From NCBI GenBank assembly GCA_018651745.1, contig JABIDL010000029.1:15001-35637 (forward strand): a stretch of 20,637 nucleotides of DNA. The letters are read 5' to 3'. This stretch comes from Candidatus Neomarinimicrobiota bacterium. Its GTDB lineage: Bacteria; Fidelibacterota; Marinisomatia; Marinisomatales; TCS55. A program made the position numbers and the translations under genes. Every line of letters starts with the position of its first letter. Within the stretch, counting starts at the first letter, position 1. The notes under the pieces were generated by a model. It had not been told where the DNA came from. It did no database searches and worked only from the letters and a program-made list of their open reading frames with translations. This document shows positions 1,366 to 20,637 of this stretch, piece after piece.

Positions 1366-4300
1366 CTATTTCAATAAAACTATTTTTTGGGACCGCATTT
1401 CTCCGTTGTAACGGATGTGGATTATATACACTCCCGTTGGCGATGCGAAATTATTATTATCCTTCCCATTCCAGGTAAAGCGATGATTCCCCGGTTGAAA
1501 AATCTCATTTGCCAAAAGTGAAACTTCCCTTCCATTCATGTCAATAATTGACGCCTTCAGTAACCCGGTTTCAGGAATTCCTACGTCAAAATGCGTTTGA
1601 GGGTTAAACGGGTTTGGATAATTTGAACCAACCGAAAAAACCGTCGGAACCGTTCCTCCTGACTCAACCCCTACATTTTGACTAACTGTAAAGGTTAAAG
1701 AAGATAATTCTGAAACGGAAACTTCCATATCTTTTTCGGAAGAAACGCCCCAGTAAACTGTTTGGTTTTCTACAAAGCCAAAATTGTCCACCATTTCTTG
1801 GTAACTTAAGGACAGAGTTCCACCGGAAACATTGTCCTCTATATATAAGGGATCAATCTTAGTCGCTGAAGAAGAAAGATAAAAGGTGTACGTAACATCG
1901 GAGGTTTCACCGGACCAGATAAAATCAATCGCATCATCATCGTTTTCAAGTGTTTGGGATGTACCGGTCGAAGGACTGCTGAGCGAAACGGCAGTTGGAT
2001 AAGAAACCGCTGATGTAAGGTATTCCAATATTTTAGTAGCAACATCAACCGGTTCCATAAAGCTCGAATTGGTTGCGTTCACCCTATCCAACTTAAATGA
2101 AGCGAATACTGCTTGATAATCCACCGATGAATACCGAAGAATACCACCATGATCATCATCACCATTAATGTAAAATGAGATGTGGCTTCTTGGATCTCCT
2201 TTTGTGGCAACAGAATCAATTCCTGAAGCATCAGCCGTAATTAACGCCCAATTAGAGGAAGTAACTCCAAGTGGGTCACCTGTAACGCCTTTTAACCATG
2301 TTGTAGAAGAGCGTGTACCACCAAAATGCATATTCAAATAGTCATTCAATAAATTTGTACCATCCAACTGTTGTGCTAAATGATCGCCAACGAGAAATAA
2401 GGATTTACCGGCATCCAAAAACCCTTTGATTGCGCTGCGTTCTTCCTGCGACAATGCACTTGAATTCACACTTCCAGTGTTCCAAATAACTAAATTTCTT
2501 GAATTCAAATTCATTGATGAAATGGCGCTCGATGCCCTGTCTTTCACTTCGTAAGAGGATCCCATCGCATCAAGTGCATCCACAATTACTTCCTGTGTGC
2601 TTCCGCTATTATCATCATCTACGAGTAGCACTCCCGGAAGACCAACATTCATAGACCAGTCTTCGGTAACATAATTCGTACTTCCTCCACTTAGATTGAT
2701 GCTAAACTCTACAACACCTGATGGCGCATCAGAATTGATAGATATTTCAAATGGATCATTTGCGTTGCTTGCTGTTCCATTGGTCGCAATATCAATGGAT
2801 GCTGTGGTTCCATCAACGATGGACACATTAGGATTCGTAGTTGATAAAGTAGCGGTTGCATTGTAAACAGGATTTCCATAGTTCGAAAATGAAACGGTGA
2901 GAGAAACCGTTTCGCCAGGATCGGGATATGTATCAGATCCACTCACAACCGATGTTACGGCCCCTAACAAAACAAGAGTTGTTATAGGATTTACATTTAA
3001 GATATACTGTGCATTCGATCCGGTGGTGTTTAGCACCGTCGGATTTATGGTTACGCTGCTGTAATTGGCCCAATCATTTAAAACGTATAGCGCATCACCA
3101 TTGCCGTCCACAGTAATTTCTGTACCATCATAATTGCTTCCTGCTCGAGTAAAAATCTGTAAATGCCAATCTCTGCTGGCATCGCCGTCAAATTCAACAA
3201 GAAGATGACCTGAACTTCCACTACGATTTACCCGGACATAATTTGTACCTAGATGATCAGGCAAATTGAGGGTTGTAGGTGTGAAATTGGATATTTGATT
3301 TGTATAGGTTCCGGCATGGGATCCGGGAGTAAGATTACTTGCTTCCTCATACTGCCCACCCTCATAGGTTCCGTTTGCTCTGCTGCCGGTATAATAATTC
3401 CAAGCCGTGAATTTTGGGAATTCTGCCGAAAGGCTGGTGCCCTCATCTTGGAAATAAGAATTGGCAGCAGAAATAGCATTTCCGATTGGTTTTTCCCAAA
3501 CCAATTTAATCGCCTGCGCTCCAAAATTTTCTTCGATGTAAAAATTCCATAGAACGGCACCATACTGATATAATTCTCCACTGAGAAATGTATCAAGACT
3601 GTAATGAGGTTTAGTTTGGAAGGCGCTTTCGTACCCTTCATATCCATCCAACGAATCGTACATTTTTTCTTCAATCCACATGGAGGACGCTTCCTTAAAC
3701 CATGAACTGGATACAGAATAGGAATGCTGAACCAAGTGAAAGAGCTCATGGCATCCGGTGAGTTTATTATATCGATCAGAGAGACTGTTGTCCATCCAAA
3801 TCTGATGATAGGAATTTCCAGGAACGTAGCCGTACACACCACTTAAATTTTCTACCGTTACAATAAATTGTGAATTTCCGGTATAGTCGAGTGGGTTGTG
3901 CCAACTGTTTGTTGTAACCCAGTCGATTGCATCATCAAAATAGTCGCCCATGTCTTCAATGTAATCCGGCGTTCCATTGTTATTTCCATCATAATTAGAA
4001 ACAGCATCCGAACCACTGGTAGAATACGAAATTCTAAATAATCCGCCGGAAGATGTATAAATCACACGGTTTGTTCTGGTTGACGATGTCGTTGAAGAAT
4101 TCACCAGCCCGTTTTGAAGATCAAATGGAAGTTCATCCAAATGATCTAAGGCATCCTGATGAAAAGGGAGTCCACATTTTAAGGGAGTTGCATCAGCAAC
4201 TTGATATTTTTCCGGAAGTGTTTCATTTAAGAATAGGGCACGCGCCTTTAGTTCTACGGCCTCAATCTCGCTGATATATCCCTTCTCAAGGTCTGCTTGA

Positions 4301-4377
4301 ATCAAGCTAACCGGATGCTCTGCCGCGAGAATTCCCGCGGCGAAAAAGACCAGTAATATTTTTCGTACTTCTGTCAT
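1366..4377 (-). CDS. Secreted HExxH metalloprotease, MXAN_6640-like, with T9SS sorting domain (1003 aa)
   Basis: Signal-peptide-like N-terminus (residues 1-19: MTEVRK, a hydrophobic stretch, L-A-A-E), then a propeptide-like region (about 20-100). The probable catalytic domain is at about 100-350: zinc-binding motif HELFH (H210, E211, H214) followed by a tryptophan/glutamate segment (SSSWFKEASSMWIEE), in which E229 is a candidate third ligand. This arrangement recalls the MXAN_6640 family of putative metalloproteases. Downstream are beta-sandwich segments, then a Rossmann-like module starting GVLLVDDDN at about 580-790 that resembles class I glutamine amidotransferase/ThuA folds, then a fibronectin-like stretch (about 795-905). 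The tail (about 909-1003) is a T9SS type A domain with SNYPNPFNPQT, 'TWNGKDNNN' and final KIVLLK. AAGGA lies just before the ATG. The gene follows a 128-base gap filled by an inverted repeat and precedes another T9SS-tailed gene. Extracellular proteolysis is inferred from the zinc motif; substrate unknown. Confidence 0.82.
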   Translation of the reverse strand: MTEVRKILLVFFAAGILAAEHPVSLIQADLEKGYISEIEAVELKARALFLNETLPEKYQVADATPLKCGLPFHQDALDHLDELPFDLQNGLVNSSTTSSTRTNRVIYTSSGGLFRISYSTSGSDAVSNYDGNNNGTPDYIEDMGDYFDDAIDWVTTNSWHNPLDYTGNSQFIVTVENLSGVYGYVPGNSYHQIWMDNSLSDRYNKLTGCHELFHLVQHSYSVSSSWFKEASSMWIEEKMYDSLDGYEGYESAFQTKPHYSLDTFLSGELYQYGAVLWNFYIEENFGAQAIKLVWEKPIGNAISAANSYFQDEGTSLSAEFPKFTAWNYYTGSRANGTYEGGQYEEASNLTPGSHAGTYTNQISNFTPTTLNLPDHLGTNYVRVNRSGSSGHLLVEFDGDASRDWHLQIFTRAGSNYDGTEITVDGNGDALYVLNDWANYSSVTINPTVLNTTGSNAQYILNVNPITTLVLLGAVTSVVSGSDTYPDPGETVSLTVSFSNYGNPVYNATATLSTTNPNVSIVDGTTASIDIATNGTASNANDPFEISINSDAPSGVVEFSINLSGGSTNYVTEDWSMNVGLPGVLLVDDDNSGSTQEVIVDALDAMGSSYEVKDRASSAISSMNLNSRNLVIWNTGSVNSSALSQEERSAIKGFLDAGKSLFLVGDHLAQQLDGTNLLNDYLNMHFGGTRSSTTWLKGVTGDPLGVTSSNWALITADASGIDSVATKGDPRSHISFYINGDDDHGGILRYSSVDYQAVFASFKLDRVNATNSSFMEPVDVATKILEYLTSAVSYPTAVSLSSPSTGTSQTLENDDDAIDFIWSGETSDVTYTFYLSSSATKIDPLYIEDNVSGGTLSLSYQEMVDNFGFVENQTVYWGVSSEKDMEVSVSELSSLTFTVSQNVGVESGGTVPTVFSVGSNYPNPFNPQTHFDVGIPETGLLKASIIDMNGREVSLLANEIFQPGNHRFTWNGKDNNNFASPTGVYIIHIRYNGEMRSQKIVLLK

Positions 4378-4393
4378 ATTCCTTCCGAGATTA

Positions 4394-4478
4394 AAATTGT
4401 ATGAACATTTATTTTTTCACACCCCTCTTCGCTTCTCCACTATTACAGGGGAGAAAACTCAATGGGGTCATACAATTT
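4394..4478. repeat. Dispersed palindromic repeat, copy A, with 11-bp outer inverted repeats
   Basis: The inner palindrome is TTCTCCACT (4433-4441), loop ATTAC (4442-4446), AGGGGAGAA (4447-4455), with one mismatch. Around it lie ACCCC and GGGGT arms. The outermost 11 bases are a perfect inverted repeat, AAATTGTATGA (4394-4404) and TCATACAATTT (4468-4478). The element fills most of the 128-base gap (4378-4505) between the 882-residue gene's stop and the metalloprotease start. Neither strand shows a proper T-tract after the inner hairpin, so it does not look like a standard terminator. Confidence 0.7.
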
Positions 4479-4505
4479 GACTTTAATGGCATCTGTTAAA
4501 ATCGT

Positions 4506-7154
4506 CTATTTCAGCATGAGCATTTTGCTCACGTCGCTAAACAATTCGGCGCCGGTTACTGGATCAACCGCTGTTACTTCATAAAAATAAACACCAGACG
4601 GCATTTTTTCACCAAGAGAATTAGTTCCATTCCAAATGGCAGAATGCATTCCGGGATTGACCTCTGAAGATCCAAGGCTTCGAACTTCATGACCCAATAC
4701 GTTCACAATCCGAACCGAAACAATCGAACGATTAGCAACCTCAAATTGAATCTTGGTTACCGGATTGAATGGGTTCGGATAATTCTGATGAAGATTAAAT
4801 CCTTCAACTACACTTGGTTCATCCACTGCTAACTGAGTTAATCCAGATGCATCAATTGTAAGGTTCATTGGTGAAGATTCCGTATCATACATCCCGTCGG
4901 TTGCAACGGCTGTCCAGGTTCCTGTAACGGTATTTCCGACACCTACAAAAGTACCCAGATCTAAATACGAAACGCTAAATGAGTTTACCGTTGATTTTTC
5001 AATTGGCGGGATCGTAAACCCAGCGAGCCCTCCACCAAAATCAATGCGAATTGCAAGCATATCACCATCCGGATCAGACACATTCCCTGCACTCAGGAAA
5101 AAGGATTGTGAATCAAACGATGCATTGGCATCTGTGATTGTAATTGTAGAACCATCTGCCGGCGTAACAGGCGTCGGCGCTGCTGAAGAACCGCCGGTAC
5201 CTACGAGCCATGTATGCGCATTGGTAAGCAAGGATGTAAAATCTGCCCAGTCATTTCCAGATCCCGCTTCTATTGGAAATGAAAAATAGACTGTTTTAAA
5301 TGGTGCACTCGATCCCATATCATAATTGGTAACACCAGTGCCTTCGTAGCTCGTATTTCCTGTAAAAATCTTTACAGCATTCCCACCGGTTTTTGCTGTA
5401 AGGAAATCACCCCAATTGGGCCACCCAATGGATTCAAAATCAATAATATACGGGCTTGATACCCAGTTATTGGTAATGGCATTCCCGGTAACTCCGGTCA
5501 TTTGAACATCGCCATATCCGCCGTTATCCGCATCCCCATCATTATCAGGATCATTTACATAACTCCCGAGGCCGAGATAATCGTAAGCAAAATCTCCGGA
5601 ACTAAAAGACCCAGATGCACCTAAACCTGCAGCGAAAAAATAATCCATATCCGCATACAAAATGCGACCGCCTCTGTCTAAAAATTCAGCATAGCCGTTA
5701 TTATCTGTACCGGATGCGGCCATGGATGAACCTCCCCAGCCATACTTGACAATCGTTTTAAATGTAGAATGATTAACAACCGAACTGTCAATCCCATCAC
5801 GCTCTGCCACATTCCATATATAATATCGAGTAAATTCGCTACCACTCAGTATTGAATTTAGACCAGTGCCGGATGTATAAAGATCGAGCGTATCAATGCT
5901 TCCATCCTGAATAAGAAGTGTCATTTGAGTTGAAATAGGAGAAGAAACTCGAACATAAGTTCCAATACCACCCGAATTTCCACGTCCTGTTACATCTTCG
6001 GTATATACTTGGAAACTAAGCGTATCGCCTACATCAATGCTGACGTCGGCGTAATATCGACCGGCAGTTGCCGCATCTTCTATCATTTCATAATTTGCAC
6101 TTGAGGATGAACCATCTGCTTTACCAATTGCAGTCATTAGCGTACAAACAAAAGCATCTCCGTCAAGATCTACAACGTCCGCCCAAATACGTCGTGTTTC
6201 AGCAAAAGTATCGCTGAATTGCGCTTGGTTTTCTATGATGGGTGGAACCGCATCGTACTGAACCACAATCTGCATCATATGGTTCACATAAAGGTTATCG
6301 TCAGCGGATGATATAATTCTGTACCATCCCGATGGTGTACCTAGAGAATGAAGCGTTGAATAACTTGGGCAATTCCCCTCTTCTTCGGTTGAGTGAAATG
6401 TGCCATCTTGATAAAGCGATGCAGGACTGGCTGAATTACCGCTGGTAGCAGTATAACCTGCCCAAATATAAATCTCATCATTCGGAGAATCCATTGCAGT
6501 TGCGGTTACTTCTACTCCACTGCCAAATGTTTCTGCGAAATTAACCACCTGCCAACCGGTGCCTGTGGATGCTAGCCAAGGTTCCCAATCTCCGTCTTGG
6601 GTAAAATGGTTTGCAAGTACACTGGTACCAAATTCAATGCCAACACTAAAAGGAGTTATGGGAGCAATCGTAGCGTCTATTGGTGGATCCCCTACTGTTA
6701 CATCGTTTGGGAAAGCGTACCAACCAGCTTCATACACACCATCGCCGTCATCATCTACCCATTGCACAGCAGGTCCTTCAATCCATGCTTCTGCATCACC
6801 ACCTGCCAAAATCATAGCATGGAGTTCATTAATAATTCCATCTGTCAGCAAATGATACCGCATAATTATCGAGTCTGTACCTGTGCTTTGGTACCCACCA
6901 AGAAAATCATCGTAACTTTCAACAGATGTTGGTGCTTTATATAATGAAATAGTATCGTACACTGCGCGGTTATTCCTCGCATCTATATTGACACCCAACC
7001 GATGTGTCCAAAAGCCTTCTTTAAGAGTCAGTGTGTTTTCACCTCGCGTTATCACATCCCATTTATGTTCTTTTTTAAAAACTGATGTTTCACCGGCGAA
7101 TGAATTGCTAATGAGCACAACTGATATTAATAGTGTGTTAAGCATTGATTTCAT
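4506..7154 (-). CDS. Large exported protein with T9SS type A sorting domain (882 aa)
   Basis: Signal peptide at residues 1-20 (MKSMLNTLLIS, hydrophobic core, S-F-A-G). The mature protein starts with a beta-rich region holding a calcium-loop-like DDDGDGVYEAG near 135. A central segment (about 410-650) starts 'TQMTLLIQDG' and includes 'GYAEFLDRGGRILYADMDYFF'. It looks like an alpha/beta module of the GATase-like/ThuA type, comparable to one in the neighbouring metalloprotease; no catalytic Cys-His-Glu set is evident. Next comes a probable Ig/cadherin-like segment (about 660-775), then the T9SS type A tail with HQNYPNPFNPVT, 'IVNVLGHEV', 'WNGTNSLGEKMPSGVYFYEV' and terminal SKMLMLK. The start at 7154, rather than the ATG three codons later, is favoured by a strong AGAGGAG six bases upstream. 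It begins only 23 bases after the PorV-like gene, so the two are probably co-transcribed. The function of the mature protein is not recognised. Confidence 0.85.
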   Translation of the reverse strand: MKSMLNTLLISVVLISNSFAGETSVFKKEHKWDVITRGENTLTLKEGFWTHRLGVNIDARNNRAVYDTISLYKAPTSVESYDDFLGGYQSTGTDSIIMRYHLLTDGIINELHAMILAGGDAEAWIEGPAVQWVDDDGDGVYEAGWYAFPNDVTVGDPPIDATIAPITPFSVGIEFGTSVLANHFTQDGDWEPWLASTGTGWQVVNFAETFGSGVEVTATAMDSPNDEIYIWAGYTATSGNSASPASLYQDGTFHSTEEEGNCPSYSTLHSLGTPSGWYRIISSADDNLYVNHMMQIVVQYDAVPPIIENQAQFSDTFAETRRIWADVVDLDGDAFVCTLMTAIGKADGSSSSANYEMIEDAATAGRYYADVSIDVGDTLSFQVYTEDVTGRGNSGGIGTYVRVSSPISTQMTLLIQDGSIDTLDLYTSGTGLNSILSGSEFTRYYIWNVAERDGIDSSVVNHSTFKTIVKYGWGGSSMAASGTDNNGYAEFLDRGGRILYADMDYFFAAGLGASGSFSSGDFAYDYLGLGSYVNDPDNDGDADNGGYGDVQMTGVTGNAITNNWVSSPYIIDFESIGWPNWGDFLTAKTGGNAVKIFTGNTSYEGTGVTNYDMGSSAPFKTVYFSFPIEAGSGNDWADFTSLLTNAHTWLVGTGGSSAAPTPVTPADGSTITITDANASFDSQSFFLSAGNVSDPDGDMLAIRIDFGGGLAGFTIPPIEKSTVNSFSVSYLDLGTFVGVGNTVTGTWTAVATDGMYDTESSPMNLTIDASGLTQLAVDEPSVVEGFNLHQNYPNPFNPVTKIQFEVANRSIVSVRIVNVLGHEVRSLGSSEVNPGMHSAIWNGTNSLGEKMPSGVYFYEVTAVDPVTGAELFSDVSKMLMLK

Positions 7155-7160
7155 GATGAT

Positions 7161-7167
7161 CTCCTCT
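7161..7167 (-). promoter_or_regulatory. Strong Shine-Dalgarno site for the 882-residue exported protein
   Basis: The minus strand reads AGAGGAG followed by six bases (ATCATC) and the ATG at 7152-7154. This is the clearest ribosome-binding site in the window and decides the start codon against the alternative ATG at 7143-7145. Confidence 0.7.
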
Positions 7168-7177
7168 TGTGTTTTTG

Positions 7178-8218
7178 TTAAAGCTGGAATTGAACCCCGA
7201 CCGAGTGAATTGGCTCGAGATATCGATGGTCTTCAAATCCATAAAAAAGTTTTGTTTTCTGTCTAAATACAGGTTCGAGGTTAACTCCAAACCCCCCAGA
7301 AAATCCACGCATATTACCGTTAAGTTGTGCATCAGTTGGATCAGAATACCCCAGAGAATTCAGATTCCCGTGTCCTGCAGTAAGGATGATAAAATCTTTG
7401 ATATTCAATTCCACACCTGCAGAAGAAAATTCCGCCTGATCAACGATATTACGAATAGCAAGACTTGTTGTCAACTTAGCACCCAGTGGCAATGGAAAAT
7501 CCATACTGAATCCAAGTTCAAAACTAATCGGAAGCTGATAGTCTTCTGAAACTACCTCTATTCTCACGTCTTCTTCCTCGAAATCACTTTCACCGAGTTT
7601 AACTTGTTTTTGTAGATTTTCACCTGAGTAATGCATATCTTTTCCAAAATTTCTGAGCGCAAATCCAATCACTAAATTATTGATAAGTCCTGTGTTATAG
7701 AGTGCGCCTATGTCAAAAACTACATTGGTTGCACTCAATTTGTCTATGGTCTGGATCACATATTTTGCAGTCCACCCTCCGCTGAATTTGTCCGTAAATT
7801 TTTTGCCAAAGGACATATGAAGCGCATAATCATTCGCTGTAAACATTCGTCCGGTTCCGAGAGGATCAAGTTCAGTGGTTTCTTCCATTTCACCTGAAAA
7901 CAAACCAACCATTCCAACGGCTATGGTACCAAATGAAGTTCGATACGCAGCAGAAAACTGTTCATATCCCATATCTACAAAATATTCAGAGTGGGAAACG
8001 ATAGCAGTAAATCCTTTTAACGTTGCAATACTTGCAGGATTGTAATGAACTCCTTCTAGTAGTCCTCCACGAGCGACCATAGTACCACCCAAACCTGCGG
8101 CCCTTGGAAAGGAATTAATTTGCAAAAATTTGGCACCAGCGCTGCCCTGCCCTGCAAACAAAATTGGGGGGGAGAGGATTAGTGCAAAAAACAATAATGA
8201 CAGAAATATCTGAATCAT
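7178..8218 (-). CDS. PorV/PorQ-family outer-membrane beta-barrel protein (346 aa)
   Basis: The chosen start is the ATG at 8216-8218, giving a good signal peptide (MIQIFLSLLFFALILSPPIL, then F-A-G) and a mature N-terminus GQGSAGAKFLQINSFPRAAG. That, with the following GGTMVARGG and YNPASIATL, matches the N-terminal signature of PorV/PorQ-family proteins: '...A.FL.I...ARA.GMGGA.VA....A...NPA.LA'. The rest is alternating beta-strand sequence typical of a FadL-like barrel, ending in VGVQFQL. The open frame extends 52 codons further upstream, but that stretch is translated repeat DNA without signal-peptide character, so the longer start is rejected. PorV in T9SS is an outer-membrane shuttle that moves cargo to the attachment machinery; PorQ has a related barrel. 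The gene lies between a giant exported protein and a T9SS-tailed protein 23 bases downstream, which fits a secretion role. Whether it acts as a true PorV cannot be told from sequence. Confidence 0.85.
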   Translation of the reverse strand: MIQIFLSLLFFALILSPPILFAGQGSAGAKFLQINSFPRAAGLGGTMVARGGLLEGVHYNPASIATLKGFTAIVSHSEYFVDMGYEQFSAAYRTSFGTIAVGMVGLFSGEMEETTELDPLGTGRMFTANDYALHMSFGKKFTDKFSGGWTAKYVIQTIDKLSATNVVFDIGALYNTGLINNLVIGFALRNFGKDMHYSGENLQKQVKLGESDFEEEDVRIEVVSEDYQLPISFELGFSMDFPLPLGAKLTTSLAIRNIVDQAEFSSAGVELNIKDFIILTAGHGNLNSLGYSDPTDAQLNGNMRGFSGGFGVNLEPVFRQKTKLFYGFEDHRYLEPIHSVGVQFQL

Positions 8219-8226
8219 TGATTTCT

Positions 8227-8279
8227 TACCCCACTTTTCATTATCCCCTATGACAGGGGAGAAAAAAGTGCTCAAAACC
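8227..8279. repeat. Dispersed palindromic repeat, copy B1
   Basis: Core TTATCCCCT (8241-8249), loop ATGAC (8250-8254), AGGGGAGAA (8255-8263), flanked on the left by TACCCCACTTTTC and on the right by a degenerate GAAAAAAGTGCTCAAAA. The loop is the reverse complement of the loop in copy C, so the unit is in the opposite orientation. On the minus strand its outer GTGGGGTAAG ends only 8 bases before the PorV-like start codon, so the repeat supplies that gene's leader sequence. Confidence 0.7.
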
Positions 8280-8280
8280 A

Positions 8281-8349
8281 TTGCTTTTCCCCTGTAATAG
8301 GGGAAACACATCGCGTCCGACCTTCGGCGGAAAGGGGTCAAAAATATTG
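8281..8349. repeat. Dispersed palindromic repeat, copy B2 (tandem to B1)
   Basis: Core TTTCCCCT (8286-8293), loop GTAAT (8294-8298), AGGGGAAA (8299-8306). The right side contains an extra GC-rich segment (about 8311-8330, CGTCCGACCTTCGGCGG) before the conserved end AAAGGGGTCAAAAATATTG. Together with copy B1 it occupies most of the 152-base gap between the 1319-residue protein gene and the PorV-like gene, and accounts for the spurious upstream extension of the latter's reading frame. Confidence 0.7.
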
Positions 8350-8370
8350 TTGATAGTGTTCGCAACTTCA

Positions 8371-11300
8371 TCATGGCCCAAGCACAATCGCGAATTTTCC
8401 TTCTTTGGTAACGGTTTTACCGAAGAGCTTCCCTTCAAGATGATACAGATAAAGTCCGCTGGCAACTTTGAGTCCTTCAAAATTTCTAAGATCCCAAGCT
8501 AACGTACCTTCTTCATCCTTTATTTCATTATCGCCAACCATGTTATCCTTCTTCAAAGTCGCAACCCATTCACCCGCAACATTGAAGATTCTAATAGTGC
8601 ATTCGGAGGGCAAATGCCGGAAATCAATCCGTTGATTAAAACGATTATGATCCCAAGCAGCCCGGATAATATAGGGATTTGGAACAACGCGAATATCATC
8701 CAATGAAACCATCGAAAGTGTATCCAACATATTCACGGTGTAAAACCTAAATATATCTTCTTCTGTCAGTGGGCGCGAGGTTCGTACAAATAGTGTATCA
8801 GGGTTTGCATTATTAATCCCGGCAGGTGCATCCAATACCGAGCCACCAGTGATATTATCATCGAAAGGTTGGAAAATGACTTTAAAAGAATAGGGACTTA
8901 CCGCTGTATTTACCTGCGCTTCACGAGTTAAAACATTGAACTTATTTTTAGAATTTGCTGTGGAAGAATCGGTATCCCACCAAAGATATTTTTTTTCAGA
9001 TATTCTCCCAGTATTGAATGATGAAATTGATTCGCCAAGCGTCTGGTTCGTCACCTGCAAAGGGACTCGCTGAGGATTGTAACTTGAATCACCTGATATT
9101 TCCTTGAAATCCGCCCATGCAGATGTTGGTGCACTTGCAGAATCAGATTCATCAAAAAATGTGATGTAATAATCGTAAGGTTCTAGGTTACTCTCGGAAA
9201 CAGAAAACCGGAAAAGATCCACGGCATTGGCGCCCAAATTCCAGTACACCGAATCCACTTCGAGCGTCGGATTTGTAACCATAAAAATGAACCCATGATC
9301 TACAGCATTGTCACCGGTATCAATAGTAGCGATATAAAATATACCACCCGGGCTAAGTGTTCCTGTATAAGCTGAATTAGAACTATTTTTTAATACAGTT
9401 GGGTTGTATTGATAATCTACGCTGACATTTCCAGTACCTAAGGTTGTTGCAGAAGTTGCATCCAAAGCAATGGTGGATTGTCCGTAATGAATGGTTCCCT
9501 TAACTGTATCTGATCCAACGATTCCCTGGATAATCCCGTCCCCCTGATCGGTTAAGGTGGTTGATCCAACGGTGAGCAGCACAGTTCCCGGGACAATAAT
9601 TCCATTTGGAAGATTATCACCAGCCGAAATATCTCCATCACCATCCGTATCTCGCCCACCAATGAGAAATGTATCTTTGTACGCAGTCCCGGAATTCAAC
9701 CCTATTAATGATTCGTTAGCAACACCAATGTTCGCCATGCTGGAATCTGTTAGCAATCCGTAGTCTGCCTTGCTGGTTTCATCAAATGGATCTGTTTTAT
9801 AAAAATTGATGCGGTAATGATGCCCGGTTAAATTTTCATACGCTGTAATCGCTTTCAGAAATTCACTAGTAGAAGGTCCTTCTTTAGTATAATCAGAAAT
9901 TTCCGGCTTACCTGCAAGTTCTAACGACATGTGCTGAGGCATTACCGTGATTAAATTTTGATAAATACTGCTTTCAAGCGACGGAATCCCAAGCGTGGGT
10001 TCTCCCATATCAAATGATGTTACCGAATAAAAATATGTCAATCCATCTACCAATCCTTCGTCCAAGTAAACGTACTCAAGCCCGGTTTGATCGCCAACAT
10101 CATCTGCAGCAAAGGATTGAATGGTGAACACATCTCCTTCTTGAGGATTCAAACTTTGCTGAGATATTTCCGTAGCACTGATGGTTCCGTCTAAATCGAG
10201 GTCCTTATATTCTCCGGAAGAAATACGAACAAAAAATCCATCAAGATAAATATAGTATCCAGGGCGATAAACATCGATATCTGTTAACATTCCACCGGAC
10301 GCCTTTTTTGCAGATGTATCATACGCCGAATAAGTTCTGAATCCTTCTCCTGTTGACATCGCTGCAAGATTCGGCTGAACCAATGTACGGTTTGTCACAT
10401 TGTAAATCACCATTTTAAGCGTATCTGCCTCTGATCCGCCACCCGTATCAATGGTTCCTGAAACAAATTCGATCGTGTATTCGCCTTCTTTAAACCTATC
10501 TGAAATCGCATCAATGGAAGACTGTGCCGAAATATCACCTGTACCAAGCGGACCGACAAATTCACCTATTGCGTTGGATGTCCCAGTTGTGTAAGACATA
10601 GTACCGGACCATTCAGAACTGTCACCATCCACATCGTATTCTGCAAGTTCTATCCAATCTCCCTGCAATCCGGTGGTTGATCTGTACACGCGGTAACCCG
10701 CAAAATCTGTTTTACCTGTAAATGGATCTTTGACCGTTTCAGGAAATGCGTCCCAAGATAGATAGACAGCTTCATGCGCAGGTTGAACGGTTAACCCCGG
10801 TGATGGTGGAGCTTCTGCACCAATATAACCCGAATCAAATTTATCAATGGCTGCTTGTGTATTTTCTTTTAGGTCTGCCAAAGAAGAACCCGCAACTAAG
10901 GCAATGGTAATACTAATGGTTTCGCCCGGAAGCATTTGAATAACCGGACCGCTTGTGGCAAGTTGACGAACATCTTGCGGTTCTTCGTACACCTCAAAAC
11001 TATCCGTTAAAGAAAGTTGGAAATATTTCAGATGATCCACTTCGCTGTCATCTACGTCGCCGGGATGTCCTTCACTTTGACCGAGATCAGACCGAATCCA
11101 TGTTTGGAATCCTGTTAATCCAATTTCCCAATCATCAAGCTCATTTCCGGATGCAGGAATGCCATTCACAGGATCTCCAACGGAATCCACAGGCGTCTCC
11201 ACATAGACAGATCCAAGATATCCCGCCGGTGCAACCCAACCTGTTTCCTCCAAATCAGAGTCATAAGAATACCCTAAATTTAAACTGCGGTCGAACCCAA

Positions 11301-12330
11301 TCAGGTCGTCATCAGCATAACCCACATCATTGTCCATGAAATAGCCAACGAAAACACTATCGAGCGGAAAATCGTTCATATTCGTAATTTTATAATTGAT
11401 ATAAAGGTAATCATCAGTAACCCAACTATAGGTCCGTTGTTCTACTTTCACACCGAGTGAGCGCTCATCATACCCGCCGGTCCATAAAAAATTCCCATAA
11501 CGTTCTTGAATGTAATCCCCAAAAACTGCATAAGTATCTTCATCCGAGACAACATCTCCATGAACCACACCATTTTCATCTACCCGAAAAGGATCAAGCA
11601 ACACGCGATTTGAATCCAACCCTGCTGCTGTTTGTAGGAATGCTCTCCGTCTAACATTGATTGGTTCATGTTCTAAGCGGTAGAGCGTATCTACTGCATC
11701 TTCCGGCGAATAATAATCCCCTACATTCGGCACATAAAACGACCAGGGATCCTGAAAGGATTCCATCGATTTGTTCTTCTGACCAAATAAAAATTCACCT
11801 TTGTTTTCTTCATCTTTTAAATCATTTTGCGCATTAATCGTTTGGTCAGACTGCCAAAGTTTTGAAATAGTGCTCATTTCAGAATAATATGCACAGGCTG
11901 CAACTCTCACATTTTCGATAGTTACGTTTCCCACTGTAATTGATTTGTCTTCTGGGGCATTGAATTGATCCGATTTCGCGCCAATCCATAAACCCGAACC
12001 CCATGTATAAAATTGTTCGGTTCCTTTGGGAAATTCACCCGTGCGGCCATTGAAATACCCAAATCCGGTTGGCCACATTCCGTCATAGCCATCCCAGCCC
12101 GGCGGCGGTTCAAAAATCCCATTCTGCCCTGTGTTACTGATGGTGTACGTTGTCAAAAACCCTGCGCCGGCCCACGACAGCATAATTTCCGGAGCAACAT
12201 CTAATCCCGTCCCCCTATTTAAAGATGGAAATGCTTCCGAATGTAACTGTGCTTGATAAAGTGGACGTGCAGTTAAAAACCCTACGACCATAAAAGTAAT
12301 TAGTATCGATTGACAGTATTTCATTTTCAT
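8371..12330 (-). CDS. Giant exported protein with fibronectin-like and degenerate T9SS-type C-terminal domain (1319 aa)
   Basis: Signal-peptide-like N-terminus (MKMKYCQS, then a hydrophobic stretch to about residue 21). The first ~500 residues are rich in Trp, Tyr, Gly and Asp ('GYDGMWPTGFGYFNG', 'WGSGLWIGAKSD'). A fibronectin type III-like region starts near residue 510 with 'YLSWDAFPE' and 'GYRVYRST', and its closing strand 'LTYFYSVTSFD' comes only around 775, so a long insertion may split the domain. Calcium-loop-like stretches occur (DLDLDGTISATE; DTDGDGDISAGD). The last ~105 residues resemble a T9SS/FlgD-type Ig tail: RVVPNPY replaces NYPNPFNP, then 'RIFNVAGEWV', 'WDLRNFEGLKVASGLYLYHL' and a GKFAIVLGP end without the usual basic tail. 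The gene starts 18 bases after the TonB-dependent receptor stop and precedes a PorV-like gene, implying one operon. A surface partner of the receptor is plausible but inferred; the molecular function is unknown. Confidence 0.85.
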   Translation of the reverse strand: MKMKYCQSILITFMVVGFLTARPLYQAQLHSEAFPSLNRGTGLDVAPEIMLSWAGAGFLTTYTISNTGQNGIFEPPPGWDGYDGMWPTGFGYFNGRTGEFPKGTEQFYTWGSGLWIGAKSDQFNAPEDKSITVGNVTIENVRVAACAYYSEMSTISKLWQSDQTINAQNDLKDEENKGEFLFGQKNKSMESFQDPWSFYVPNVGDYYSPEDAVDTLYRLEHEPINVRRRAFLQTAAGLDSNRVLLDPFRVDENGVVHGDVVSDEDTYAVFGDYIQERYGNFLWTGGYDERSLGVKVEQRTYSWVTDDYLYINYKITNMNDFPLDSVFVGYFMDNDVGYADDDLIGFDRSLNLGYSYDSDLEETGWVAPAGYLGSVYVETPVDSVGDPVNGIPASGNELDDWEIGLTGFQTWIRSDLGQSEGHPGDVDDSEVDHLKYFQLSLTDSFEVYEEPQDVRQLATSGPVIQMLPGETISITIALVAGSSLADLKENTQAAIDKFDSGYIGAEAPPSPGLTVQPAHEAVYLSWDAFPETVKDPFTGKTDFAGYRVYRSTTGLQGDWIELAEYDVDGDSSEWSGTMSYTTGTSNAIGEFVGPLGTGDISAQSSIDAISDRFKEGEYTIEFVSGTIDTGGGSEADTLKMVIYNVTNRTLVQPNLAAMSTGEGFRTYSAYDTSAKKASGGMLTDIDVYRPGYYIYLDGFFVRISSGEYKDLDLDGTISATEISQQSLNPQEGDVFTIQSFAADDVGDQTGLEYVYLDEGLVDGLTYFYSVTSFDMGEPTLGIPSLESSIYQNLITVMPQHMSLELAGKPEISDYTKEGPSTSEFLKAITAYENLTGHHYRINFYKTDPFDETSKADYGLLTDSSMANIGVANESLIGLNSGTAYKDTFLIGGRDTDGDGDISAGDNLPNGIIVPGTVLLTVGSTTLTDQGDGIIQGIVGSDTVKGTIHYGQSTIALDATSATTLGTGNVSVDYQYNPTVLKNSSNSAYTGTLSPGGIFYIATIDTGDNAVDHGFIFMVTNPTLEVDSVYWNLGANAVDLFRFSVSESNLEPYDYYITFFDESDSASAPTSAWADFKEISGDSSYNPQRVPLQVTNQTLGESISSFNTGRISEKKYLWWDTDSSTANSKNKFNVLTREAQVNTAVSPYSFKVIFQPFDDNITGGSVLDAPAGINNANPDTLFVRTSRPLTEEDIFRFYTVNMLDTLSMVSLDDIRVVPNPYIIRAAWDHNRFNQRIDFRHLPSECTIRIFNVAGEWVATLKKDNMVGDNEIKDEEGTLAWDLRNFEGLKVASGLYLYHLEGKLFGKTVTKEGKFAIVLGP

Positions 12331-12348
12331 AATTAAATAATTCCCAGA

Positions 12349-15300
12349 TTAGAATCTGAGGGTGAGTCCCATCCGAACAATACGTGGACTAGAATAATTG
12401 TAAGGGCTACTTATCAGACTTCTCCAGAGTGATAGATGCGCTGCATACGCTTCTTCAGCGGAACGCATTACAGATCCGGTCTGTGGATTGGTTTGACCTA
12501 CATATCTACTATATAAACTTGGTTCAAACGTTGGTGGCCGTCCATTAGAATCTGGTTCGCCACTTAATGGATAAACATAAGAAACATTTTCCCAATCAAA
12601 AACATTCCGAATGTCAACAAAAAAGCTGACCGGCCCTAAATATTTTCTGATAATGAGGTCAAGGTCTTTGGTTGATGGCATTCGTTTAGATCCCAACTCC
12701 ATAGCTTTTCCATATATATCTTCCGGTGTGTAAGCGCGTCCCGTGGCAAAATTCGCCTGAACATTGAAATCCCAGTTGCCAATGAATAAAGATCGCATTC
12801 CTTTCCCAACCGGGGGAATATAATAGCCGATGTTGGCTTTTAACGTATGCGTAATATCGTATTCCAGTGGATATTCTTTTGTAGGTAACGGTCTGTCCGC
12901 ATCAAAAATATAGAGGTAATAATATTCTCTGCTGCTCGAGCCCGTCCCTTTTGCAGTGAGGTAATTGTATTCGATGTCTCCATATAAATTAAAGAAACGA
13001 TTGAAACGCAATTTAATATCAACACCCTTAATCTTTGCAAAATCTTCCATCTCTGTCAGCGTTACGGTTGCAATCTGACCATCAATCATGGTGCTATAAA
13101 TTCGTTTTGCTTCCGCATTGATCACATCTTTATAAAAAGCACTAAGTTCAATTCCGATTTTTTCAGAAAATTTGTGAACCATGCCAACCTGATACTGAAT
13201 TGTTTTTTCGGGTTCAACATCAGGATTCCCGATAATGGGGAGTCCCGCAGCAGGATCTACAATTCCCTGATACACGTCCCCATACTCTGGTTTTTGGAAA
13301 AAATATCCGTAATTACAATAAATGGATGTCATATCTGATGCGCTAAAGTTTAGGCTAAACCGAGGGCTAATTTGATCTTTTGTTGAAGGATCAAAATAGT
13401 TGATTTCACCTTCGTCGAGTAGTTGTACTTGGTCCACAGCTTTAGCATTCGGTTTAAACCGATCCCATCTAAGTCCGAATGATGCAACAAAATCTTCATG
13501 TTCAAATTGGTTTTCAGCAAAAGCTGCCAATGTAAGCGGTCGATACTCATCGCTTCCAGACTTGTATTCAAACAAATCAAAGTATGGGTTCTGATTAGCG
13601 AATTGAATATCCATTACCATCATTTGGTTGGTGGTTGCATTGAAACCAAATTTAAAATTATTCCTCAGTGACCATTGCGAATTCAGTAAAAATTCCACTG
13701 TTCTATTTATGGTTTGCTGGATGTGCTGGCGCGGTCTTCCGGGTCCATAATTATATACATTGAAAATATCCCGATCCCAATAATATCCATTATGAAGATC
13801 AGAATTATAATCATATAAGTTATACTTTATCTGGTAATCTTCATCTCCAGTCGAATAGGAATAGAACTCTCTATGATCAAATTCTTTGAGGGTTGCTGAT
13901 GAATCTGCCGCGTCAAAGAAAAATGATGATGTATCTTGGTTCGAGGGAATGTACCACCGATGCGCATCATGCCAACGTTCATTAAAAGCCTGCATTTTGA
14001 AAAATTCTGAATCCCATGTCCCGCTTGTTACATTGAAAAAGTCTTTCTCTTTAAAATAATAATAGTAAAACGCCTGAAATTCGGATGAAAGTGAAGCAAG
14101 GTTAACCGCATTCGATGATGATCCACCAACCAATTGGTCATAAGAAATATACCCTTCAGAGAAAACGGGAAGCCCATTTTCATCAGTGATATCCTGCCAC
14201 TCACGCGTACGCGGATCATACCATTCTTTGCTTACAGCGTATTCCACCCAGTCTAACCGAGTTGAAATATAATTAAAATCTTTATAGGATGTATTGTTTC
14301 CGGACCCATAATCAGTATACGGTTCATGATAACTAACATTTAAACGCCAACTTGTATTTTTGCCAAGCATACTTTGAACAAGAAGGCTTACCCGTTGGCT
14401 ACCCGACACTGTTTTATAATAATCCTGAAGCCAATTTCCTTGACTTATTCCGTGAGAATAGCTATACCGTTCGGTTCGATCGAAATTTGCGGATAGAGTT
14501 GCGTTAAATGATGAATACTTTGGTGAAAAAGTTAATTTAAAAGTTCCCTGGGGAGATGAATAATCAGAATGATCAAGCTTTTGTGAACGCACATATGATT
14601 GATCGCCCTGTAAGAATGTTCCATTAACATAAAAAGACATGATACCTTTTAATAATGGAATCGGCCCGCCAAGACTGAAATTGGTCCTAGAATATCCGTT
14701 GTTAAGACCACCTTCTGGAAAAAGCCCATCACCTTCGTGTTCAAACGAACCGTTATATGTTTCCTTGCTTCCGGATTTGGTAACAATGCTCACTACGCCA
14801 GACATCGCCTCTCCATATTCCACGGAGAATCCGCCCTTTGTAATTACAATACTTTCGATCGCTTCATTATCAATTTCCACACCTTGCGAACGATCCACAG
14901 GGTCATTCGTCATAACGCCATCTACAAAAAAGGCTACTTCACCGGAGCGCCCTCCACGCAAGTGAATCCCGCTGGACCGACCCGTTTCAACTTCGACTAC
15001 ACCTCCGGTATTTGCAAGGAGCTCAGTAAAATTTGATACCGGCATTTTTTGCATATCATCGCCAGAAATAACAATTTTGGATGTGGTTGTTTTAACAGTC
15101 ACTACATCCTGATCCCGTTGGGCGATCACATCCACAGCCTTAATGCCAACGGCTTCCACATTGAGCTTAAAATTGAGTTTTACAGTCAACCCTGGAACTA
15201 TATTCACATCTCGAACAGTGTGGTTTGCATACCCAATGTATGAAACTTGAATATCATAGGTTCCGGCCGGGATATTAGGGATGACAAATTGGCCGTTTAT

Positions 15301-15483
15301 ATCGGACATAGCACCACGTCCGGATTCTACCGGCAGCACGAGTACATTCGCGCCAATAAGTGGATCGCCTGTTGATCCGTCCATAACAGATCCCCTAATC
15401 TTACCGGCAATACGGTCGGACTGCCCGAGGGAAATACTCATTAAAATGATGGTTACTATTAAATTCCGAGTTAGGCTATTCAT
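12349..15483 (-). CDS. TonB-dependent outer-membrane receptor with N-terminal carboxypeptidase-regulatory-like domain (1044 aa)
   Basis: Signal peptide at residues 1-20 (MNSLTRNLIVTII..S-L-G-Q). Residues about 27-115 form a carboxypeptidase-regulatory-like beta-sandwich ('GSVMDGSTGDPLIGANVLV', 'GQFVIPNIPAGTYDIQVSYIGY'). Residues about 130-240 form the plug: 'MPVSNFTELLANTGGVV', 'HLRGGRSGEVAFFVDGV', 'IESIVITKGGFSVEYGEAMSG'. The remainder is a 22-strand-type barrel rich in aromatic residues, with 'GNPDVEPEKTIQYQVG' and a C-terminal LTLRF ending in Phe, as expected for outer-membrane insertion. Proteins of this architecture import large substrates using the inner-membrane TonB-ExbBD system; the ligand is not evident. 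It lacks an adjacent SusD-like lipoprotein, so it is not an ordinary SusCD pair; the gene 18 bases downstream encodes a giant exported protein instead. It is the first gene of the envelope operon, with a candidate promoter 50-78 bases upstream and no clear Shine-Dalgarno sequence. Confidence 0.92.
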   Translation of the reverse strand: MNSLTRNLIVTIILMSISLGQSDRIAGKIRGSVMDGSTGDPLIGANVLVLPVESGRGAMSDINGQFVIPNIPAGTYDIQVSYIGYANHTVRDVNIVPGLTVKLNFKLNVEAVGIKAVDVIAQRDQDVVTVKTTTSKIVISGDDMQKMPVSNFTELLANTGGVVEVETGRSSGIHLRGGRSGEVAFFVDGVMTNDPVDRSQGVEIDNEAIESIVITKGGFSVEYGEAMSGVVSIVTKSGSKETYNGSFEHEGDGLFPEGGLNNGYSRTNFSLGGPIPLLKGIMSFYVNGTFLQGDQSYVRSQKLDHSDYSSPQGTFKLTFSPKYSSFNATLSANFDRTERYSYSHGISQGNWLQDYYKTVSGSQRVSLLVQSMLGKNTSWRLNVSYHEPYTDYGSGNNTSYKDFNYISTRLDWVEYAVSKEWYDPRTREWQDITDENGLPVFSEGYISYDQLVGGSSSNAVNLASLSSEFQAFYYYYFKEKDFFNVTSGTWDSEFFKMQAFNERWHDAHRWYIPSNQDTSSFFFDAADSSATLKEFDHREFYSYSTGDEDYQIKYNLYDYNSDLHNGYYWDRDIFNVYNYGPGRPRQHIQQTINRTVEFLLNSQWSLRNNFKFGFNATTNQMMVMDIQFANQNPYFDLFEYKSGSDEYRPLTLAAFAENQFEHEDFVASFGLRWDRFKPNAKAVDQVQLLDEGEINYFDPSTKDQISPRFSLNFSASDMTSIYCNYGYFFQKPEYGDVYQGIVDPAAGLPIIGNPDVEPEKTIQYQVGMVHKFSEKIGIELSAFYKDVINAEAKRIYSTMIDGQIATVTLTEMEDFAKIKGVDIKLRFNRFFNLYGDIEYNYLTAKGTGSSSREYYYLYIFDADRPLPTKEYPLEYDITHTLKANIGYYIPPVGKGMRSLFIGNWDFNVQANFATGRAYTPEDIYGKAMELGSKRMPSTKDLDLIIRKYLGPVSFFVDIRNVFDWENVSYVYPLSGEPDSNGRPPTFEPSLYSRYVGQTNPQTGSVMRSAEEAYAAHLSLWRSLISSPYNYSSPRIVRMGLTLRF

Positions 15484-19373: not shown

Positions 19374-19496
19374 CAATTTTTTAGACCCCTTTGTGTTTCC
19401 GGGAAATTACTGGAATAGTCCATGCGGTCCCGTTTTCAGTCCAATTATCTTCTCCCCTGTCATAGGGGAGAATGAAAAAGGGGTTAAAATATATTG
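19374..19496. repeat. Dispersed palindromic repeat, copy C, with possible terminal inverted repeats
   Basis: Core TTCTCCCCT (19450-19458), loop GTCAT (19459-19463), AGGGGAGAA (19464-19472): a perfect 9-bp stem. The right end reads GAATGAAAAAGGGGTTAAAA, then TATATTG. About 70 bases to the left, CAATTTTTTAGACCCC (19374-19389) matches the reverse complement of that right end (CAATATATTTTAACCCC), suggesting a short element bounded by imperfect inverted repeats. The core palindrome is certain; the left boundary is an inference. It lies in the 222-base gap (19306-19527) between the deiminase and the membrane-protein gene, where no other gene is evident. It could shape the 3' end of the deiminase transcript, but no T-tract follows the stem. 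Confidence 0.55.
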
Positions 19497-19527: not shown

Positions 19528-20637
19528 TTACGGCCGCATGATATCCACAACCAACAGTGCAACATCGTAAATGGTAATTTCATTATCAGCATTGATATCA
19601 GCGATTTTGTCAAAGCAAAGTCCTCTAGATTCACCGGATGTTGCTTGGTCGGCTATTAAAAATACATCAAAAATATCAACCATTCCATCTTTGTTCACAT
19701 CGCCTGAAATCCAATCCGAACATATCGGAACCACCACGCCTTTTGCCGGAACCTTTATGGCTATACAATGAATTGCGCCGTTGGATGTAATAATGTCATT
19801 GCAATCAAATCCGATAGCTTCATATCCCGGCGCGATTGCTTCGTATTGATCCAAAACTTGTTGATCGGTGCTAAAGCCATACACCGGAACGAAAATCTTT
19901 TTATTTACAATCAGCGAATTAATGTAGGTATATGTAATACCTCCGGAATAGGGCGGCATGAGCATCCGCTCAATGGTGAAAGGCCGTCCGGCGCCGTTCG
20001 TTTCGGCAGCAAGTTGTGATGCCACGCTGTTCGTAATGGCATAATTATTCCCCGCGCCGGTAGAGGCAGACGTGTATTCGCCTACGATAATGGTTGTATC
20101 ATTTATAATTTTGACAAACATGTCCACATGTCCGGTACCATCCAGTTCCATGTGCGAAACCACAATCACTTTATGGACGCCAAAATAATTCAGCATGGTT
20201 TCTTCCAGCTCTGTCTGTGTGAGCGTTGGATCAAATCCTTCACTTCCATCAAAAATAATGTCCGACACAATAACAACGCCTTTTCCATCCAGTAGCATAT
20301 TACCGCCGGCTTGGGTCAAATCCGTTCCGAAAAAGTCCACATTATACAGCCCGGCGAATGCTTCCGGTATTGCGTCATCCAAAGGGCGCGGACGATTATA
20401 CACCAAATCAATCACGGCAAGATCTCCGAGCTCATCGTAAATCCACCACGGACCATAATCTCGAATCCAGACAGTATTTGATGGTAGAGATTCAAACGCA
20501 ATGTTGTTCATATTGACGCCGTTAGAAGTCAAAGTTGCAGAAACCGTAGTTGCTTCCGTTGATCCGTTTACAATCACCCATGCCGTATCTTCTTCCGCCA
20601 CTTCCTTAATGAGCTGGGTGAGAAGTGTTGGGAATCC
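19528..20637 (-). CDS. Secreted peptidylarginine/agmatine-deiminase-family enzyme with C-terminal dockerin (5' end missing)
   Basis: The frame is open to the right edge, so the visible 369 residues lack the true start; the GTG at 20599-20601 is only an internal candidate. Guanidino-group hydrolase motifs, numbered from the window edge: WIRDYGPWW (Asp60), 'AGGNMLLDGKGVV' (~110-122), 'GTGHVDMF' (His170, Asp172), 'YINSLIVN' (Asn240) and 'GAIHCIA' with the catalytic Cys291. These match in order and roughly in spacing the Asp-His-Asp-Asn-Cys set of Porphyromonas PPAD and agmatine deiminases. The last ~58 residues are a dockerin-type pair: DVNKDGMVDIFD and DINADNEITIYD, each a calcium-loop-plus-helix repeat. 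No T9SS tail is present. The reaction would convert arginine-type guanidinium to citrulline-type ureido groups, probably outside the cell given the dockerin. Whether the substrate is protein arginine or agmatine is open; a signal peptide would lie beyond the window. Confidence 0.85.
   Translation of the reverse strand, partial: GFPTLLTQLIKEVAEEDTAWVIVNGSTEATTVSATLTSNGVNMNNIAFESLPSNTVWIRDYGPWWIYDELGDLAVIDLVYNRPRPLDDAIPEAFAGLYNVDFFGTDLTQAGGNMLLDGKGVVIVSDIIFDGSEGFDPTLTQTELEETMLNYFGVHKVIVVSHMELDGTGHVDMFVKIINDTTIIVGEYTSASTGAGNNYAITNSVASQLAAETNGAGRPFTIERMLMPPYSGGITYTYINSLIVNKKIFVPVYGFSTDQQVLDQYEAIAPGYEAIGFDCNDIITSNGAIHCIAIKVPAKGVVVPICSDWISGDVNKDGMVDIFDVFLIADQATSGESRGLCFDKIADINADNEITIYDVALLVVDIMRP

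Follow-up and report, generated by a model that had tools for sequence, protein, structure and literature searches.

Type B cargos of the type IX secretion system (T9SS) have the gene of their carrier directly downstream of their own (PMC12618676), and the substrates remain bound to these dedicated carriers (PMC12635249). In the attachment complex, PorZ and PorU are members located on PorQ and PorV, respectively, with PorQ anchoring PorZ (PMC5562754). The window analysed here is a whole stretch of 20,637 nucleotides from a Candidatus Neomarinimicrobiota bacterium (assembly GCA_018651745.1, contig JABIDL010000029.1, positions 15,001 to 35,637). It harbors, on its minus strand, a triplet of genes encoding a TonB-dependent receptor, a giant exported protein and a barrel of the PorV/PorQ family, a module that is probably a surface machine capturing large nutrients. 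Each half of this set has a precedent; what appears to be new is the union of a cargo-carrier pair with a receptor and its surface partner in one conserved gene set. No published account of the receptor-giant-barrel triplet was found in the literature searched, where subscription papers are thinly covered. Within that literature, this bears out an earlier note on the same DNA, written by a model from the letters alone, which knew of no characterised system of this composition.

Four minus-strand genes follow each other between positions 4506 and 15483. The first (12349-15483) encodes the receptor, 1044 residues long and composed of an N-terminal CarboxypepD_reg domain (PF13620), a Plug (PF07715, 53 bits) and a TonB-dependent barrel (PF00593, 82 bits), all above their cut-offs. 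The second (8371-12330) encodes the giant, of 1319 residues, and the third (7178-8218) the PorV/PorQ-family barrel, of 346 residues when counted from the methionine at 8218; the mechanical open reading frame of the latter spans 7178-8374 and 398 residues. The fourth gene (4506-7154) encodes an 882-residue T9SS cargo with a type A sorting domain (TIGR04183, 25.5 bits for a cut-off of 23). The intergenic gaps are 18, 152 and 23 bases, the second being counted from the barrel start at 8218. After rechecking of the open reading frames, positions, sizes and gaps are those that the earlier note gave. Its naming of the first gene as a TonB receptor stands on the domains listed above, and that of the third as PorV/PorQ-like on a score of 139 bits against the family model NF033709 (cut-off 90).

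The receptor-giant-barrel set almost certainly exists as a conserved module. Relatives of the giant are present in 174 of the 199 genomes of the phylum. Among 44 giant loci of the phylum, picked by sequence match and contig size and not by their neighbours, a TonB receptor lies directly upstream in 43 and a PorV-family gene directly downstream in 41, with both present in 40. The median spacings are 10 bases between receptor and giant and 2 bases between giant and barrel. The remaining loci are accounted for by two giants in tandem, a single interposed gene and a single truncated contig. At locus L103, tandem giants (3582-6680 and 6684-10580, minus strand) have a single receptor and a single barrel in common use between them. 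Furthermore, a scan of bacterial genomes across phyla, keyed on a short motif of the giant and not on synteny, returned 79 loci from Neomarinimicrobiota, Calditrichota, candidate division KSB1, Ignavibacteria and Rhodothermales, a few of which are identical or close to loci of the 44-locus set. Where the contig leaves room, the receptor is directly upstream in 72 of 75 of these loci and the barrel directly downstream in 70 of 73; the triplet is complete in 64 of the 79. The adjacency described in the earlier note is thus not confined to the window genome (40/44 and 64/79 loci), and the dedicated receptor, giant and PorV-like system that it proposed takes the form of a conserved, co-inherited three-gene set. 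The genes clpX, clpP and tig, upstream of the triplet, keep this place in only part of the family and are therefore judged unrelated to the module.

The window genome contains two further complete triplets, found by searching with the giant and the PorV family model, in which the order of the three genes is unchanged. Their spacings are 2 and -4 bases on contig 37 and 29 and 21 bases on contig 22. In each of the three complete triplets, the barrel exceeds the PorV-family cut-off. Contig 10 (loci L021 and L031) carries a rearranged relative of the module: at the edge of the contig lies the C-terminal end of a giant, followed by genes for a 1490-residue cargo, a lipoprotein-like protein, a receptor, a PorV-family barrel and an exported NHL-like protein. 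Four of the six PorV-family genes above cut-off in this genome belong to the triplets and to the contig 10 relative; one of the remaining two is located on the SprA contig (C38) and the other beside another exported protein. Across the phylum, genomes possess 1 to 29 PorV-family genes, and giant matches amount to 2-21 stretches per genome in 25 genomes of the groups named above, some proteins accounting for two stretches. The repeated set suggests that the many PorV/PorQ paralogues are dedicated holders, each for one surface protein. The streamlined genomes of genus g8 (0.7-1.0 Mb), within the phylum, retain only one or two genes of the PorV family, and in most of them no giant is detectable. 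In this genus, the number of barrels appears to fall together with the module.

The three proteins also share their history. Tree distances compared over 94 complete triplets give Spearman correlations of 0.94 for giant and receptor, 0.92 for receptor and barrel and 0.90 for giant and barrel, with permutation maxima of 0.17 to 0.22. Five nearest neighbours are common to the trees at 66-72%, for a chance level of 5%. Where a genome possesses two triplets, the receptor and the barrel group with those of their own giant's relatives in other species and not with each other. Matching trees and this two-triplet pattern therefore indicate that the set duplicates and diverges as a unit.

No Pfam family scores above cut-off for the giant, and Pfam matches are scarce among its relatives as well. 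AlphaFold2 models were built for its two parts, using alignments of relatives from the cross-phylum scan. The C-terminal domain (residues 1202-1319, positions 8374-8727 on the minus strand; VVPNPY ... CTIRIFNVAGEWV ... GKFAIVLGP) is modelled with confidence. Among the PDB chains compared, its best match is PorZ (Z 9.8, root-mean-square deviation 3.0, 91 residues, 24% identity), closely followed by PorU (Z 9.5, 89 residues, 24% identity). Next, among common immunoglobulin (Ig)-like folds, come the T9SS sorting domains of mirolase, NucA and RemA (Z 7.0-7.2). The sequence profile of the domain also ranks PorZ and PorU first among PDB entries, with non-significant E-values of 0.07 and 0.16. The predicted structure thus displays the C-terminal Ig-like sorting-domain fold of T9SS cargos, and by this predicted fold the giant is a T9SS-type cargo. 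A paralogous giant, at locus L020, reaches 21.7 bits against TIGR04183, for which the cut-off is 23.

Residues 48-504 of the giant (10819-12189, minus strand) are predicted as a β-supersandwich resembling galactose mutarotase, with Z up to 18.2 over 237 residues (VIA-align). The matched domains stand beside the catalytic domains of hydrolases and phosphorylases of glycoside hydrolase (GH) families GH15, GH65, GH94 and GH116. No catalytic helical barrel follows the supersandwich in the predicted secondary structure. The model suggests that the N-terminal half binds a glycan. By eye, the consensus (VTLYWD ... DFEGY.IYRSTD ... NGQTYYYAVVAYD) resembles an FN3 module interrupted by an insertion; no match to Pfam FN3 is found in the giant. 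Of the fibronectin-like and degenerate sorting domains that the earlier note had described, the latter is thus upheld by structure prediction, and the former is seen by eye only. Near the position of residues 380-430 of the window giant, most paralogues (alignments A4 and A5) harbor an aspartate-rich block (IDNDGDGMIDE...DNDGDW...) resembling calcium-binding repeats, which is mostly missing from the orthologous group of the window. A giant of 1590 residues at locus L097 (3590-8362, minus strand) has stretches like two-component-regulator propeller repeats, as in PorZ, and one member of alignment A4 matches Pfam Reg_prop (E 3.7e-10).

Within the PorV/PorQ family, the barrel is nearer to PorQ (89 of 220 bits) than to PorV (34 of 250 bits), and reaches neither equivalog cut-off. 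No PorP/SprF-family match was found for the barrels in NCBIfam. The barrel also gives a weak match to BamG, whose 14-strand barrel holds surface lipoproteins that form a canopy above receptors as they fold (PMC12611786, PMC12578637). Barrel and giant might accordingly resemble BamG-BamH, as a FadL-type barrel with a surface scaffold that builds or guards the TonB receptor. This role as an assembly aid is very unlikely: the BamG match (NF053685) amounts to only 22.8 bits for a cut-off of 250, the giant has a T9SS-type end, unlike BamG's partners, which are lipoproteins, and an assembly factor would scarcely need a separate set for each receptor.

The receptor does not belong to the SusC/RagA class, as the window protein has no match to TIGR04056 in NCBIfam and two paralogous receptors reach 54.7 and 27.2 of the 368 bits of its cut-off. 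SusD (PF07980) is not found in the window genome; it is matched in 16 of 61 genomes of the phylum. The earlier note remarked that the receptor has no SusD partner. This is not an anomaly of the operon, the genome being devoid of any SusD and the receptor lying outside the SusC class. On the same grounds, the idea of the giant as a SusD replacement peculiar to this operon has been dropped.

The T9SS components SprA (731 bits) and PorU (582 bits) are encoded in the window genome, together with TonB_C (84 bits). In the mechanism that we propose, the giant would cross the outer membrane via SprA, and the adjacent PorQ/PorV-like barrel would collect its C-terminal domain. The giant would then be retained uncleaved on the barrel, like PorZ on PorQ or SprB on SprF. 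So held, it would capture a large ligand, perhaps a glycan or a cell-wall fragment, and hand it to the neighbouring TonB receptor, through which TonB would power import, while nearby T9SS enzymes might prepare the ligand. The job would be SusCD-like, carried out with a T9SS-delivered partner instead of the SusD lipoprotein. For this full mechanism, in which the TonB transporter is served by a T9SS-delivered binding protein seated on a PorQ/PorV-like barrel of its own, we see the chances as evenly balanced, both the mechanism and the ligand being inferred.

The giant might instead be displayed as a T9SS-delivered surface adhesin or coat on its own barrel, with the receptor importing something unrelated or acting as a sensor, and the genes co-located for co-expression. 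Type B adhesins such as SprB do sit on SprF encoded next door (PMC9143113, PMC12618676), multidomain β proteins of the giant's size are frequent among adhesins, and paralogous giants differ greatly outside the core. Mere display, however, would not need a receptor, which is the most constant neighbour (43/44 and 72/75 loci) and has the tree closest to that of the giant (0.94). Display is therefore considered unlikely, and of the two purposes that the earlier note offered, uptake and display, capture for uptake is favoured.

Several observations weigh against retention on the barrel and capture for uptake. Genetic linkage alone could account for part of the tree agreement. The expectation that the barrel follows the C-terminal domain of the giant, and the receptor its N-terminal half, received no support from a sub-domain test: the partial correlation between barrel and C-terminal domain is 0.06 when the rest of the giant is held, and -0.11 when the receptor is held as well. 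This is taken as weak counter-evidence because the C-terminal domain is short, with 105 usable columns. The giant also stays below the cut-offs of TIGR04183 and PF18962, and so does not match the type A family model. Finally, the model of its N-terminal half is weak overall (mean predicted local distance difference test score 54, with core strands at ~70-90), and a fold alone proves no function.

That no specific coevolution of barrel and C-terminal domain was detected would also suit an ordinary type A cargo, cleaved by PorU and then released or linked to lipopolysaccharide, with the PorV paralogue interchangeable between cargos. The window genome has, besides PorU, many ordinary T9SS cargos, and the C-terminal domain of the giant shares the type A fold. 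Yet there is one barrel per giant, and their adjacency is kept through duplications; moreover, the domain lies outside the type A family cut-offs, with a fold nearest to those of two retained proteins, PorZ and PorU. We regard this alternative as distinctly unlikely. The neighbouring genes count among the support for a giant retained on its barrel and serving uptake. A same-strand protein with a sorting domain adjoins 55 of 103 triplets; among same-strand close neighbours, sorting domains are found in 18/54 downstream and 20/33 upstream. The commonest domains of these neighbours are sorting domains, FG-GAP repeats, N-acetylmuramoyl-L-alanine amidase (8/54 downstream neighbours) and the starch-binding CBM20 (6/54). 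Muropeptides sustain a cultured member of the phylum (PMC11652737), for which reason cell-wall fragments may be one candidate ligand. Convergent to the contig 37 triplet, locus L019 (97-5070, plus strand) encodes, as judged by eye, a GH18-type enzyme, a NamZ-type muramidase and an M14 carboxypeptidase with a sorting domain, which are possible cell-wall degraders.

Among the triplets orthologous to that of the window, a homologue of the 882-residue cargo follows the barrel in all 11 loci in which this stretch is present. The place given to it in the operon by the earlier note thus applies to the orthologous triplet group of the window and not to the module in general. It is followed by a gene for a 1003-residue putative metalloprotease of the MXAN_6640 type with a sorting domain (1366-4377, minus strand), an order seen in 8 orthologous loci. 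In the window, sites resembling promoters and terminators do not exceed the frequency found in shuffled sequence and therefore carry no weight for or against an operon, which is favoured by the conserved gene order and not by such signals.

The 152-base gap between giant and barrel is peculiar to the window genome, as the two genes share a 4-base overlap in two congeneric species. It is due to the insertion of a dispersed repeat element of ~114 bases (8222-8335) at the start of the barrel gene. Comparison with the two same-genus loci places the repeat, in the window genome only, inside the original signal sequence of the barrel. The repeat displays inverted arms (CCCCTATTACAGGGG and CCCCTGTCATAGGGG), and partial copies occur elsewhere in the genome; stretches similar to it are located in the window within 4378-4505, between cargo and metalloprotease, and within 19450-19487. 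The barrel frame is still open across the repeat, and a new signal-peptide-like start lies downstream, at 8218. At the far end of the window, 19528-20601 encodes a protein resembling agmatine or peptidylarginine deiminases, with two dockerin-like DxNxDG repeats at its end (by eye).

Most members of the widespread groups Marinimicrobia, Calditrichota, KSB1 and Ignavibacteria are uncultured, and their uptake of large molecules is poorly known. The receptor-giant-barrel set, with many copies per genome, is a definite and testable candidate for such uptake. Dedicated PorV/PorQ holders would extend the cognate cargo-carrier rule of type B cargos to the PorV/PorQ branch. More tentatively, and on balance doubtfully, the module might represent a second major class of TonB-driven surface uptake machines, employed across the Fibrobacterota-Chlorobiota-Bacteroidota (FCB) phyla instead of SusCD or alongside it, with a T9SS-exported giant as the ligand-binding lid, held uncleaved next to the transporter on its own PorQ/PorV-like barrel. 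If true, this would explain up to 29 PorV-family genes per genome.

Among known systems, the pairs formed by type B cargos and PorP/SprF carriers (SprB-SprF, Fjoh_3952-Fjoh_3951; PMC12618676, PMC12635249) share with the module a large surface protein with a T9SS domain and a FadL-family carrier encoded directly downstream, one per cargo. They differ in that the carrier here is of the PorV/PorQ family, the domain is PorZ/PorU- and type A-like, and the TonB receptor belongs to the set as a constant third member. The PorQ-PorZ and PorV-PorU pairs of the Porphyromonas gingivalis attachment complex (PMC5562754) provide the best fold matches of the giant's domain. In them, as proposed for the module, a protein secreted by the T9SS is anchored on a PorQ/PorV barrel with its C-terminal domain still attached. 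They are, however, single-copy parts of the secretion system, whereas many diverged copies per genome are found here, each with a receptor. As in BamG-BamH of the Bacteroidota β-barrel assembly machinery (BAM) complex (PMC12611786, PMC12578637), a FadL-family barrel would dock a surface protein near other barrels; that complex, in contrast, is a single essential assembly machine with lipoprotein partners, and the barrel described here falls far below its sequence cut-off. Finally, SusC-SusD (e.g., PMC7618045) resembles the module in pairing a TonB-energised receptor with a surface protein dedicated to it, and in having enzyme genes close by. Here, in contrast, the receptor lies outside the SusC/RagA cut-off, there is no SusD gene, and the partner is predicted to be delivered via the T9SS and not as a lipoprotein.

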